From contig JAUWBH010000049.1 of NCBI GenBank assembly GCA_030605085.1, forward strand, positions 1 to 33,126: a stretch of DNA of 33,126 bases. Direction: 5' to 3'. The position numbers and the translations under genes are program-made. Source of the DNA: Promethearchaeota archaeon. Its GTDB lineage: Archaea > Asgardarchaeota > Lokiarchaeia > Sigynarchaeales > SOKP01. This document shows, in pieces, positions 3,205-25,256 of the stretch (positions within the stretch are counted from its first letter, which is position 1; each line of letters opens with the position of its first letter). The notes under the pieces were generated by a model. The model was not told where the DNA came from, did no database searches, and was given only the letters and a program-made list of their open reading frames with translations.

Positions 3205-3777
3205 TTGACAGTCTTATTAAGAGATTTAGGAACGCCATCAGAATTTTGGGAGTATTTCGAACAAATATCCAAAATACCTCGTTGCTCTGGAAACGAGAAA
3301 TTAATAAGAAACTATGTAAAACAAGTGGCTGAAAATTTTGGGTTTGAAACTAAAATTGATAAGGCTAGGAATCTTATTGTAATAATTCCCCCGAAAATAA
3401 AAAAAATGGATTATACTAAAGTAGTTTTACAATGCCATTTGGATATGGTCTGCGAAAAAAACGAGGGAATAACCCACGATTTTTCAAAAGATCCACTAAA
3501 ATTAAAAATAGTTGAAATTGATAAAGAAAAATGGCTTACAGCTGAAAGAACTACTTTAGGAGCAGATAATGGCGTAGGAATTGCTTACTTATTGACACTT
3601 ATAAAAAAAATTTATCTCGGAGAGTTCGATTTTGGCTCGCTAATGTTAGACTTACTTTTTACAGTTAATGAAGAGAGAGGCCTCACAGGCGCTCTTCTGA
3701 TTGATAAAAATTTAATTAATGGAAATTACCTTATTAATCTTGATTCTGAAGAAGATAACAAGTTTAAAATCACCTAA
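3205..3777 (+). pseudogene. N-terminal fragment of a second PepD dipeptidase
   Basis: 190 codons from a TTG, aligned end to end with the N-terminal 190 residues of the PepD at 1-1250. Shared motifs are GTPSEFWEYFEQISKIPRCSG, HLDMVCEKN, TTLGADNGVGIAYLLTL, FTVNEERGLTG and LDSEEDN. The reading frame stops at 3775, just where the intact protein continues with GCAGG, so the lid domain and the last metal ligand are missing. The copy points away from the first, giving a divergent pair around the Panacea/RelE genes. The N-terminal half alone should not be an active peptidase. Divergence between the two copies is clear, so the duplication is not recent. Confidence 0.8.
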
Positions 3778-4048
3778 AGAATTTATTGAACTAATTACTA
3801 TTTTAAACTTTTTTCTAGGGTTGGGTTTTATTATTTATGGTATTTACCAAACTTGGCTAGTTATCTACCATACTCCTTTATTTAAAAACGGAGCTGAAGT
3901 TATCGTTATAATACGGTTAGTTATTCTCCTTATAAGCTCAATACTTTTTATCGTAGCAGGCGTAATTGAAATCTTGAGTTGTATATTATTATTAAAGAAG
4001 CCAAAAATAATAAATTTCAGGGGTACTAGATTCTTTTACAGGTTCTGA
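3761..4048 (+). CDS. small two-helix membrane protein fragment
   Basis: The frame overlaps the end of the truncated pepD copy and has no convincing start of its own; an upstream ATG at 3719 would begin inside pepD out of frame. It encodes two hydrophobic stretches, LITILNFFLGLGFIIYGIY and VIIRLVILLISSILFIVAGV (with a continuing hydrophobic run), separated by a short polar loop. It then ends in a basic tail. It is probably the remaining part of a membrane protein whose 5' end was lost when the pepD fragment was joined to it. The family is not recognised. Confidence 0.4.
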   Translation, partial: SLKSPKEFIELITILNFFLGLGFIIYGIYQTWLVIYHTPLFKNGAEVIVIIRLVILLISSILFIVAGVIEILSCILLLKKPKIINFRGTRFFYRF

Positions 4049-22062: not shown

Positions 22063-22127
22063 TCAAAATTTTATTAATTAAAATCGTGTTTTAAGAAATA
22101 TTTAAATACTTTAATCCATAAGGAAAT

Positions 22128-22265
22128 ATGAGCAAAAAATGATTTGCTCACAAAGCTGAGGCTCACCTCAAGCAAAACCCTTGAAATAGGATCTGCTTGC
22201 CGTGTTGCCAACATCAGCGACAGGAGCACACGCGCAATAGAAGTTAGAAGAGATACATCTATTTA
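22128..22265 (+). ncRNA. GC-richer segment with consecutive hairpins, possible structured RNA
   Basis: A TATA-like TTTAAATA (22101-22108) lies about 25 bases before a stretch that is clearly GC-richer than its surroundings. It can form GAGCAAA/TTTGCTC (22130-22149), TGAGG/CCTCA (22157-22170), AGCA/TGCT with inner CCT/AGG (22171-22197) and TGTT/AACA (22203-22213). No tRNA, SRP or RNase P signature is present, and it is not tRNA-Sec. Alternatively it is a small leaderless gene: ATG 22128 with one A removed from the A-run would read MSKNDLLTKLRLTSS and on to a TAA near 22265, so a frameshifted gene is possible. Confidence 0.35.
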
Positions 22266-22470
22266 AGTTATTACATGGTTTCGCGTTATCATCAAAACAT
22301 GGAACACATTGGGACAGTAGAAAAATTACGCAGTGGCAGATCTGGGATGGGCAAGTTTGTCCAAGTTTTCAATATCTGTAATCTTTTTAACTTCTTATTA
22401 GTATTATTAGTGTATAAAGAAATTTTTTTGTTTATCTTTATTACACATACAACAATAAACTGTGATTAAA
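22266..22470 (+). promoter_or_regulatory. spacer with TATA box of the selenoprotein-like gene
   Basis: TATAAA at 22413-22418 lies about 55 bases before ATG 22471, so transcription could begin near 22443 and leave a short leader. GTGAT at 22462-22466, four bases before the ATG, is a weak ribosome site. An open frame from ATG 22275 runs through this spacer, but its second half is non-coding in character. Confidence 0.45.
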
Positions 22471-22584
22471 ATGGAAAGTAAAACCATCCTTATATTGGCA
22501 ATTCTTATTTCCGTAGTGGTATTAATTTCCGTATTAATTCTCGTTTTAACATTTAATCCTGTTAGTGGAGGATGACCTGGTTAA
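22471..22584 (+). CDS. single-pass membrane microprotein with candidate C-terminal selenocysteine (SelK/SelS-like plan)
   Basis: ATG 22471 encodes MESKTILILAILISVVVLIS, then VLILVLTFNPVSGG, a TGA at 22573-22575, then Pro-Gly and TAA at 22582-22584. Read conventionally it is 34 residues; with TGA as Sec it is 37 residues with Sec35. Residues ~5-27 form one membrane helix with a short polar lumenal or cytosolic tail. Gly-Gly-Sec close to the C-terminus after a single membrane helix is the plan of eukaryotic SelK and SelS. Thirty-one bases after the TAA lies a eukaryote-type SECIS candidate (22616-22651) and then a terminator-like hairpin. selB lies at 23838-25256 on the other strand. Family identity to SelK/SelS is not claimed; only the architecture matches. 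Confidence 0.6.
22573..22575 (+). other. candidate selenocysteine UGA codon
   Basis: TGA preceded by GGA GGA (Gly-Gly) and followed by CCT GGT TAA (Pro-Gly-stop). A true stop only two codons later and a SECIS-like fold downstream are what a C-terminal Sec position predicts. If no recoding occurs, this is simply the stop codon. Confidence 0.55.
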
Positions 22585-22615
22585 ACACGAAAATTACTAC
22601 AAATTTTTACTTCAA

Positions 22616-22651
22616 ATGACTGAATTTTAAAAATTGTAGAAAATTCGGGAT
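22616..22651 (+). promoter_or_regulatory. eukaryote-like SECIS element candidate in the 3' UTR
   Basis: ATGAC at 22616-22620 and GGAT at 22648-22651 can form the SECIS quartet: C20-G48, A19/G49, G18/A50 and U17/U51 (last two digits of position). Above it, TGAATTTT (22621-22628) pairs with AAAATTCG (22640-22647) with one G-U pair. The 11-base apical loop (22629-22639) begins with AAAAA, the position of the conserved unpaired adenines. Lokiarchaeal selenoprotein genes are known to carry eukaryote-like SECIS elements. Weak points: helix II is short (8-9 pairs), helix I below is poor, and an alternative 12-pair hairpin (22597-22609 with 22628-22639) competes for the loop. Confidence 0.55.
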
Positions 22652-22652
22652 G

Positions 22653-22671
22653 AAAGAGTGGCCCTCTTTTT
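22653..22671 (+). terminator. hairpin with T-run after the SECIS candidate
   Basis: AAAGAG (22653-22658), loop TGGCC and CTCTTT (22664-22669), followed by TT. It lies immediately after the SECIS candidate and before the end of the converging reverse-strand phosphatase remnant, so it probably ends the microprotein transcript. Confidence 0.5.
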
Positions 22672-22679
22672 AAAGCATA

Positions 22680-22970
22680 TTAGTTATTTATATATTCGAT
22701 GTTAAAAATTGAATCAACACCTTTACTATGATTAATATTTATTTTTGAAACCTTCCCATAACTTATTTGAATTATAAAAGAATTTTTTAAGGGGATTTTA
22801 AGTATATAGGATAAGATAGAGCGAATTATACCTGAGTGAGTAATAATTGCCACTTTTTCATGATCTTTTTTGATGATTTCTTCAAAAATCTCGTTTGATC
22901 TATTAAATAAATCAAGATAAGATTCACCATGGTCAAATACACTATATTGGTAAAATAAAATTATTTTATA
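22680..22970 (-). pseudogene. C-terminal half of a histidine phosphatase (phosphoglycerate mutase family)
   Basis: The reverse strand is open for about 100 codons to TAA 22680-22682. It reads FDHGESYLDLFNRSNEIFEE, then KKDHEKVAIITHSGIIRSIL, SYILKIPLKNSFIIQISYGK and VSKINI. GESxxD and THSGIIR are the second half of the CobC/PhoE-type histidine phosphatase domain, including the second catalytic His. The N-terminal half with the RHG motif is missing, and a TAG lies just upstream, within the truncated Roadblock copy. It is a remnant joined to that copy. Confidence 0.65.
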
Positions 22971-22971
22971 C

Positions 22972-23250
22972 TTATTTAGGAGCTATTTCCTTGAGAATTG
23001 GTTCCATTATCTTGAATGCTTTTTTTAGCTTATGAATGTAATAACCAAGCTTAAAGGCCTTCTTGCAGTTAGTAAAAAGCATAAAATTGTTATCAGCCTC
23101 ACCCACTAAAATGATTGTATAGCCTTTAATACCCCTTATTACAATTTCTTTTAATTCGCCCTGATTTAGACCTTTGCTAATTTTATCGCCTAGGGAAATT
23201 AAAGTGGCTGGTGAAGCAGAATAGATGTCGCCTAAAAATTTTTTAGGCAA
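22972..23250 (-). pseudogene. truncated second copy of the Roadblock/LC7 gene
   Basis: 83 codons nearly identical to the C-terminal 83 residues of the gene at 23367-23792 (eight differences), from YSASPATLISLGDKISKG to KLKKAFKIMEPILKEIAPK. The apparent start, TTG 23250 with PKKFLGD, comes from a 19-base palindrome at the junction and is not part of the family. The first ~58 residues, including the first helix and strands of the Roadblock fold, are absent, so the product is unlikely to fold normally. It probably arose by a recent tandem duplication with 5' loss. Confidence 0.75.
23230..23248. repeat. 19-base perfect palindrome at the duplication junction
   Basis: GCCTAAAAA and TTTTTAGGC flank a central T. 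It lies exactly where similarity between the two Roadblock copies ends, so a hairpin at this point may have triggered the duplication break or been created by it. It could also act as a terminator for the intact gene upstream on the reverse strand. Confidence 0.6.
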
Positions 23251-23366: not shown

Positions 23367-23792
23367 CTATTTAATCTGTATTTGTTTCAATATTGGTTCC
23401 ATTATCTTGAATGCTTTTTTTAGCTTATGAATGTAATAACCAAGCTTAAAGGCTTTCTTACTGTTAGTAAAAAGCATAAAATCATTATCTACATCGCCCA
23501 CTAAAATGATTGTATAGCCTTTAGTACCCCTTATTACAATTTCTTTTAATTCGCCCTGATTTAGACCCTTGCTAATTTTATCGCCTAAGGAAATTAATGT
23601 AGCGGGCGACGCACTATACAGATCGGAGATAATATCAGATGTTTCAGAGCTCGCAATCCTTAATCCCGTTTTGGTAACGATCGCAGTTCCCTCTAAATCG
23701 GTAGAGCTCTCAAGAAATTCTAAACTACGCATCAAATCGCTCAAAATCTCTTGATCTATTTCAAGCTCTGGTTTTTGAAACCCTTCACTCAC
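23367..23792 (-). CDS. Roadblock/LC7 domain protein
   Basis: 141 residues from GTG 23792, with AGGTG-type ribosome site on its strand at 23799-23806. Fold elements are a leading helix (IDQEILSDLMRSLEFLES), the strand STDLEGTAIVTKTGLRIAS, a helix with PATLISLGDKISKGLNQGEL, KEIVIRGTKGYTIILVG, then DFMLFTNSKKAFKLGYYIHK and a final helix. Roadblock proteins (MglB, dynein light chain, Ragulator types) dimerise and regulate small GTPases; Asgard archaea have many. It lies 45 bases downstream of selB on the same strand, suggesting co-transcription, though no functional link to selenocysteine is known. A truncated copy follows. Confidence 0.85.
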   Translation of the reverse strand: MSEGFQKPELEIDQEILSDLMRSLEFLESSTDLEGTAIVTKTGLRIASSETSDIISDLYSASPATLISLGDKISKGLNQGELKEIVIRGTKGYTIILVGDVDNDFMLFTNSKKAFKLGYYIHKLKKAFKIMEPILKQIQIK

Positions 23793-23837: not shown

Positions 23838-25256
23838 TTAAATCTTTTTTAGTTTGAAGTTTCTTAACTCTTTTAACATAACTCGATCGCCTTTGCTCAC
23901 TTTTATGTCTTTATTTTCAATTCCAACAATTACAGCCGATTTCGTTCCGAATGTCCCTAATATTTTCGTGAAAGGAGGCTCTAATGCTTTTCCTACAATT
24001 TTTTTTGCTCCTATTGCACTTTGAGCTAAGCCAGTACACACGATCCCTTGAGAATGATTTGGGTTTTGAATGTGGCCTTTTTTAATTTTAAATTTATAAA
24101 ATAAGGGAGCTTCTCTATGGATCTTTAATAATTCTGCCGATCCTAATATCCTTAGTGTTGTGGGTGGTAAATCTAATCGGCTTATGAGCATGATAGTTTT
24201 CTCTTTTCTTATCAATGCCTTTTCATTTAACCATAAAATTGCCTTAAAACCTATATCTTTACTAGTTGCGATAGTTTCAACCCTTTTTCCTTCGATTTCA
24301 TAAAAAGGATATATTTTTCCAACAATAGTTAGCATTCCTATGGTAACATGTACTTGAGTACCAAAATGTGTTTCTGGTTTAAACAGTTTATTATTATTCA
24401 CTTTTACCTCAAGAATATCGCATTTTTCGAATGTTTTTGGATTATTAGTAGCGTAACAACCTCGATAAATTCTACTAATATCTAAATTTTTTACATTAAT
24501 ACCTACTCTATCTCCTGCTTTTGCGGTTTTTACGTTTTGATAGAAGATCTGAATATTTTTTATTCTCCCAGAAGTATTTGTGGGTAGTACAATTAATTCT
24601 TGATTTAAATTTATTGCTCCTTTTAATAATGTACCAGTTATAATCGCACCCATGCCTTTAATTGAAAAATAATGATCAATAGGAATTACTACATTGCCTT
24701 CCGTATCCCTTTTAATATCTAAAGTGTTAATCATCTCTAAGATTCCTTTTCTAAGTTCTTCAAAACCTAACTTATTTTCTGCCGAAACTGCATAGATTGG
24801 GACATTCGCTCCAAAAGATGTCGATTCGAAAAATTTTCTAGTTTTAATAATCTCATCGTCAATTTTTCCATTAAAAAGATCTATTTTATTTAAGATTACA
24901 ATGATATTTTTAATGTTAAGTGCGTCAATCATAATTAAATGCTCCCCTGTTTGAATTTGCGGTCCTTTGTTTATGTCAATTATTAATAACGCGCTATCAA
25001 TGATTTCTACCAAAGAGGCGCTGATTTTAATTAAATCAGCATGTCCAGGGCCATCTACTAGAGTAATCAAAAACTTATCGAGCGTGAAACTTGTAAAACC
25101 TAAATCTATAGTAATACCCCTCTCTTTACTTTGCGGATGGGCGTCAATTCCTGCGGTTGATATGATTTCGCTTAGAACTGAGGCAACCGCTGTTTTACCG
25201 GAATCTATGTGTCCAAATAAACCAATATGAACTGGTATTTTCTCTTCGACTTCCAT
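23838..25256 (-). CDS. selB: selenocysteine-specific elongation factor SelB (archaeal/eukaryotic type)
   Basis: 472 residues, the archaeal SelB length. GTPase motifs: G1 GHIDSGKT (15-22), switch I HPQSKERGITIDLGF with the SelB/eEFSec-specific pattern STAGIDAHPQSKERG, G3 DGPGH (68-72), G4 NKID (123-126), G5 SAE (158-160). Domains II and III follow (DHYFSIKGMGAIITGTLLKG is characteristic), and a C-terminal domain IV ends with GTFGTKSAVIVGIENKDIKV. It delivers Sec-tRNA to UGA codons with a SECIS. ATG 25256 has no clear ribosome site, so the message may be leaderless. Its presence shows that this genome encodes selenoproteins, which supports the microprotein at 22471. Confidence 0.94.
   Translation of the reverse strand: MEVEEKIPVHIGLFGHIDSGKTAVASVLSEIISTAGIDAHPQSKERGITIDLGFTSFTLDKFLITLVDGPGHADLIKISASLVEIIDSALLIIDINKGPQIQTGEHLIMIDALNIKNIIVILNKIDLFNGKIDDEIIKTRKFFESTSFGANVPIYAVSAENKLGFEELRKGILEMINTLDIKRDTEGNVVIPIDHYFSIKGMGAIITGTLLKGAINLNQELIVLPTNTSGRIKNIQIFYQNVKTAKAGDRVGINVKNLDISRIYRGCYATNNPKTFEKCDILEVKVNNNKLFKPETHFGTQVHVTIGMLTIVGKIYPFYEIEGKRVETIATSKDIGFKAILWLNEKALIRKEKTIMLISRLDLPPTTLRILGSAELLKIHREAPLFYKFKIKKGHIQNPNHSQGIVCTGLAQSAIGAKKIVGKALEPPFTKILGTFGTKSAVIVGIENKDIKVSKGDRVMLKELRNFKLKKI

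Follow-up and report, generated by a model that had tools for sequence, protein, structure and literature searches.

A candidate minimal membrane selenoprotein gene with a eukaryote-like SECIS element near selB in a Lokiarchaeia-like archaeon

The membrane selenoproteins SelK and SelS share an end motif in which Gly-Gly stands before selenocysteine (Sec). The first description of the Lokiarchaeal SECIS is reportedly that of Mariotti et al. 2016.

A survey of Asgard genomes (PMC11227280), in which homologues of known selenoproteins were searched for, names seven families: SelD, FrhA/VhuU, HdrA, FrhD/VhuD, a Prx-like protein, an AhpF N-terminal homologue and a DsbA-like protein. By this homology search no eukaryote-specific selenoprotein family was found in more than 400 Asgard genomes. 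Its type I model has the core (AU)GA_[G/A]A, a stem of 7–15 bp with no more than two mismatches and an apical loop of 8–20 nt; loops starting with unpaired AAAAA are reported for Lokiarchaeia, the energy limit is -5 kcal/mol, and in Lokiarchaeal selenoprotein genes the AUGA is often overlapped by the stop codon (PMC11227280). In the part of PMC10650576 available to us, SelK and SelS are described as having no significant sequence similarity and as forming one family by plan, that is a membrane helix at the N-terminus, a segment rich in glycine that also has proline and basic residues, and Sec as the second or third residue from the C-terminal end. Among archaeal proteins, the accessible text of PMC11291895 describes VhuU, a Sec-containing subunit of the NiFeSe hydrogenase of Asgard archaea with approximately 50 residues.

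The locus described here lies in a window, i.e. the whole stretch of DNA that was analysed, of 33,126 bp and 31% GC. From its sequence we consider it likely that the frame at 22471–22584 is a genuine gene for a minimal membrane selenoprotein in a Lokiarchaeia-like archaeon, with the element at 22616–22650 as its type I SECIS, and that it represents a family absent from the survey (PMC11227280). The features of the locus are collected in Table 1.

Table 1. Features of the candidate selenoprotein locus, with positions in the window
Feature	Positions	Strand	Details	Basis
TATA-box-like TATAAA	22413–22418	+	about 55 nt 5' of the ATG	sequence reading
Shine-Dalgarno-like GTGAT	22462–22466	+	4 nt 5' of the ATG	
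Candidate selenoprotein ORF	22471–22584	+	37 codons if the UGA encodes Sec; ATG 22471–22473, TAA 22582–22584	reading frames, codon use, hydropathy, AlphaFold
Putative Sec codon UGA	22573–22575	+	followed by CCT GGT TAA	recoding suggested by SECIS and selB
Competing hairpin CUACAA...UUGUAG	22597–22639	+	3' arm is the SECIS apical loop	minimum-energy structure
Whole SECIS	22607–22661	+	includes possible lower stem 22607–22612/22656–22661	minimum-energy fold
SECIS core	22616–22650	+	AUGA 22616–22619, stem 22620–22628/22640–22648, loop 22629–22639, GA 22649–22650	
3' hairpin, terminator-like	22652–22670	+	seven pairs, U run inside the stem; overlaps the lower SECIS stem at its 3' arm	
selB (archaeal selenocysteine elongation factor, aSelB/EFSec)	23838–25256	-	convergent with the candidate	TIGR00475

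The reading frame and its signals

The candidate frame encodes 34 residues up to the UGA, MESKTILILAILISVVVLISVLILVLTFNPVSGG, and beyond it Pro, Gly and the UAA. With the UGA translated, Sec would be residue 35, third from the end in the tail NPVSGGUPG; the peptide contains no cysteine. The parts of the gene as read in an earlier note on this DNA, namely a TATA box at 22413, an ATG at 22471, one membrane helix and the ending Gly-Gly-UGA-Pro-Gly-stop, are all in place, the TATAAA being presumably an archaeal promoter element. The Shine-Dalgarno-like GTGAT includes an in-frame GTG at 22462, an alternative start that would give 40 codons (three additional residues). Matches of at least five bases to GGAGGTGATC precede 6 of 26 further genes in the window and occur in 4.2% of intergenic 18-mers taken at random. 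Upstream, the candidate frame holds an in-frame stop codon (22456–22458), and upstream of the start no coding remnant was found in frame before that stop. The two remaining forward frames 5' of the SECIS offer no ATG-initiated frame that contains a UGA and ends soon afterwards at a stop.

The predicted membrane helix is single, very hydrophobic and covers approximately residues 6–28. The best 19-residue hydropathy of the peptide, 3.52 from residue 6, was reached by none of the simulated ORFs of 30–45 codons, whether of window composition (0/1629) or of intergenic composition (0/1231; both sets, 0/2860). AlphaFold, given the single sequence, predicts a helix at residues 2–28 with a mean pLDDT of 85.8, followed by a loose tail at about 58. 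Codon-position bias gave a p of 0.003 in the candidate frame as against 0.53 and 0.57 in the 102-nt flanks, and the synonymous and full codon scores were equalled by 2.0% and 4.4%, respectively, of 2000 random frames. Next to the window's own genes the full codon score is low, 5.6% of gene pieces scoring as low, which may be expected when a membrane peptide is set chiefly against ribosomal proteins. Ribosomal genes dominate the codon table. Judged without reference to the RNA structure, the candidate frame looks like a gene.

The peptide was screened against Pfam-A and NCBIfam, with 0 families each at E <= 1, a comparison of little power at 37 residues, and against solved structures, with 0 matches at E <= 10. 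A protein database search with the 40-residue form returned no candidate. Although that database includes the SelB of the window, the search did not retrieve even the 34-residue ORF itself, so that its silence says little. Literature searches listed no Asgard SelK/SelS-like selenoprotein, most matches being judged by title and abstract.

The SECIS element, selB and the neighbourhood

A eukaryote-type SECIS with an ATGA/GA core, helix and A-rich loop had been proposed 3' of the gene; its sequence and potential pairing are in place, and agree in core, stem, loop, loop adenines and energy with the Asgard type I model, with no mismatch. The upper stem consists of nine pairs (C-G, U-G, G-C, A-U, A-U and four U-A; 0 mismatches), and the 11-nt apical loop, AAAAATTGTAG in DNA and AAAAAUUGUAG as RNA, starts with AAAAA. 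The core folds at -6.1 kcal/mol and, with the lower stem, at -9.2 kcal/mol, the latter being the minimum-energy fold of 22600–22665. Rfam revealed no SECIS: the whole window gave 2 matches and sub-stretches 5 and 2, all below the gathering score.

The AUGA begins after 31 nt from the stop codon of the candidate ORF, and the distance from UGA to SECIS is 40 nt. The latter falls below the range of 70–1500 nt given for archaea in the portion of PMC9499178 at hand. The overlap of stop codon and AUGA in Lokiarchaeal genes would imply short gaps wherever Sec lies near the end. As far as the available text of PMC9622424 goes, a strict distance limit was not found in work on Methanococcus, while the part of PMC9723677 open to us gives a selenoprotein-to-SECIS distance of 30–500 bases, as compared with the 31 nt from the stop codon here. 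One Lokiarchaeal SECIS is reported to be non-functional in Methanococcus maripaludis (PMC11881835).

The rarity of such an element was assessed with four mismatch-free rules, from strictest to loosest: a stem of at least nine pairs with a loop of 8–14 nt that starts with AAAA; a stem of at least eight; a stem of at least seven with AAA; and a stem of at least seven with a loop of 8–20 nt and AA. Under all of them the candidate SECIS is the only match on either strand of the window. In windows simulated from Markov models, the numbers of matches per 1000 windows, strictest to loosest, were 0, 2, 17 and 93 with the composition of the window and 2, 5, 36 and 116 with that of its intergenic DNA, and these are to be read with the proviso that the strictest rules were fixed after the candidate had been seen and only the loosest follows the published ranges. 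All four rules gave 0 matches over 460,496 bp of natural DNA, an AT-rich control drawn from one bacterial genome (39 loci, L001–L008 being left out) with 34% GC against 31% in the window.

With mismatches the picture changes. Two mismatches and no adenine requirement yield 94 matches in the window; when AA is required, the window has 5 (one mismatch) and 19 (two mismatches), and the 460-kb control 23 and 116. A suitable upstream ORF accompanies 1 of the 23 and 3 of the 116 control matches, and in the window one other match, with two mismatches, at 24054. The published model with its permitted mismatches is thus non-discriminating. A suitable ORF, defined as an ATG frame of at least 34 codons with a well-placed UGA, a sense codon and then a stop, was present at 3941 and 2654 per 200,000 simulated positions (2.0% and 1.3%). 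Multiplying the loosest mismatch-free rate by the ORF rate, the two being taken as independent, gives approximately 0.002 expected per window. Chance is a poor explanation for a helix-encoding ORF, a UGA and a SECIS occurring together near selB.

The position of selB beside the candidate, also claimed earlier, was confirmed: the gene lies 1.2 kb away on the same contig, and its product matches TIGR00475 with an E-value of 2.3e-71 and 241.2 bits, the cut-off being 242.25. Besides the window's own protein, 119 SelB relatives are among the matches listed, with 69–78% identity, and their named sources are Promethearchaeota, Lokiarchaeota, Lokiarchaeia, Thorarchaeota, Hodarchaeota and plain archaeon. 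The window is accordingly ascribed to a Lokiarchaeia-like Asgard archaeon, and its host is predicted to decode Sec by its own selB. No tRNA, and hence no tRNA-Sec, was found in the window. When genome contigs were searched with SelB, the one locus obtained was part of a GTPase with 25% identity, from a Campylobacterales MAG. Among viral contigs SelB alone matched 4 stretches and a 28-row SelB alignment 220, none of them a relative; phage records gave no match. An Asgard locus was reached in none of these scans.

The window also carries a ribosomal-protein cluster, its genes being named by eye except for one of the L15/L18e type (PF00828). At 3205–3777 (+) an ORF resembles, again by eye, a shortened gene for a PepD/M20-type peptidase, and is overlapped by a hydrophobic ORF (3719–4048). 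A G+C-richer, non-coding stretch of about 256 nt (22120–22375, +), flanked by the L15/L18e-type gene on one side and the candidate on the other, folds better than its shuffles (z -2.98; equalled by 1 of 200). It has no match in Rfam and is possibly an undescribed structured RNA. The C-terminal part of a histidine phosphatase (22686–22958, -; PF00300 positions 114–186 of 194), alpha-ribazole-phosphatase-like and apparently truncated, lies between the candidate and selB. Beside it a 258-nt direct repeat (22973–23230 and 23368–23625; 88% identical) reflects the partial duplication, in tandem, of a roadblock/LC7 gene, the duplicate lying at 22972–23250.

Competing folds and alternative readings

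The hairpin that competes for the SECIS loop, to which the earlier note had drawn attention, is real, and for the naked RNA it is the structure predicted to have the lowest energy. Over 22585–22672 it reaches -16.6 kcal/mol versus -12.5 for the SECIS, 4.1 better, in an energy model that scores neither the kink-turn quartet nor a bound protein. The probability of the SECIS stem is at most 0.036 (down to 0) for transcripts that begin no later than 22597, and 0.57–0.999 for those that begin at 22600 or further 3'. The first arm of the competing hairpin would probably be left uncovered by a ribosome positioned at the UGA. Given an arm free of the ribosome, and a kink-turn and protein that the model does not score, the competing hairpin constitutes a real difficulty, or else a switch. 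As to the second hairpin, taken earlier for a terminator-like structure, the hairpin itself is real; it is absent from the predicted terminators, the rule for which requires a T run after the stem.

It is against this background that an ordinary membrane peptide must be weighed, one of 34 residues ending at the UGA, the SECIS-like hairpin being a chance product of AT-rich DNA and the RNA folding as competing hairpin plus terminator. In this organism UGA ordinarily signals a stop, matches to loose SECIS rules are frequent, the gap between UGA and SECIS is short, and besides the minimum-energy position of the competing hairpin the whole stretch folds with a z of -2.54 (2 of 200 shuffles as good). 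Nevertheless we regard this explanation as unlikely, in view of the 0.09–0.12 mismatch-free matches expected per 33-kb window under the loosest rule (<=0.002 under the strictest), their absence from 460 kb of real DNA, and the location of the SECIS 31 nt past a frame that contains a UGA and, close behind it, a second stop, in an organism that appears to decode Sec. Were the hairpin due to chance only, the analysis would still yield measured false-positive rates of SECIS rules in AT-rich DNA.

Under the preferred reading, that of a selenoprotein gene with its own SECIS, a kink-turn binding factor would hold the SECIS in place and SelB would bring Sec-tRNA to the UGA 40 nt 5' of it, the ribosome then terminating at the UAA two codons past the UGA. 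To our knowledge SBP2 has not been reported in Asgard archaea. The helix would reside in the cell membrane and the short, flexible tail would carry one selenol near the surface. Since the peptide has no cysteine, this selenol would need a partner; by analogy to the SelK/SelS plan one may guess at its pairing with another protein, or with a second molecule of the same peptide as a diselenide, or at a one-residue reduction of peroxides or thiols. If this reading is true, small Asgard selenoproteins have been missed by gene callers and homology searches, and the locus would provide a concrete candidate for how eukaryotic membrane selenoproteins began.

A bolder version, which we think rather improbable, has the locus specify an Asgard membrane selenoprotein on the SelK/SelS plan (helix plus Sec tail, eukaryote-like SECIS), the plan itself predating eukaryotes; the competing hairpin could then switch the UGA between stop (34 residues) and Sec (37 residues).

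The SECIS might also be real and the gene a relic or fragment of a longer selenoprotein in a rearranged locus, as the truncated His_Phos_1 domain and the partial roadblock duplicate just downstream could indicate. This is very unlikely, for the frame has a start codon, is preceded by Shine-Dalgarno-like and TATA-like sequences and encodes a complete hydrophobic helix, and no coding remnant was found in frame before the upstream stop.

Common descent with, or ancestry of, eukaryotic SelK/SelS, as distinct from a similar plan, is very unlikely: the single N-terminal helix, the Sec third from the C-terminus and the eukaryote-like SECIS would fit it, as would the fact that SelK and SelS are themselves joined by plan and not by sequence (PMC10650576, in the part available), but there is no profile match, the nine-residue tail has no basic residues, short helical peptides easily converge, and the homology search of Asgard genomes returned no eukaryote-specific family (PMC11227280).

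Comparison with known selenoproteins

The earlier proposal of an archaeal selenoprotein on the SelK/SelS plan stands as regards the single helix, a UGA placed three codons short of the end, the SECIS and selB; the Gly/Pro/basic tail did not bear it out. Kinship to SelK/SelS, suggested at the same time, is unsupported beyond resemblance, there being no Pfam, NCBIfam or structure match and no basic residue in the tail. Set beside the plan of that family, the helix and the place of Sec were found in the candidate, whereas the Gly/Pro/basic segment and a profile match were not; with neither a basic Gly-rich tail nor a family model match, the candidate is not filed under SelK/SelS, and would at best act like these proteins by plan only.

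Like eukaryotic SelK and SelS (SELENOK/SELENOS), the candidate has one N-terminal helix, Sec near the C-terminus (third from it, where theirs is second or third) and Gly-Gly before Sec. Unlike them it comprises only 37 residues, has a nine-residue tail with three glycines, two prolines and no basic residue, and possesses neither a cysteine partner nor a sequence match. The gene falls outside all seven families listed for Asgard archaea (PMC11227280). Its SECIS resembles the type I eSECIS-like elements of the same survey in lying just 3' of the stop codon and in core, stem, loop and energy, and differs from them in the strong competing hairpin and the short UGA distance. Whereas the selenoproteins described in the accessible text of PMC11291895 have CXXU or UXXC, the candidate is a membrane helix without Cys; like VhuU, as portrayed in that text, it would be a very small archaeal selenoprotein with its Sec near the end.
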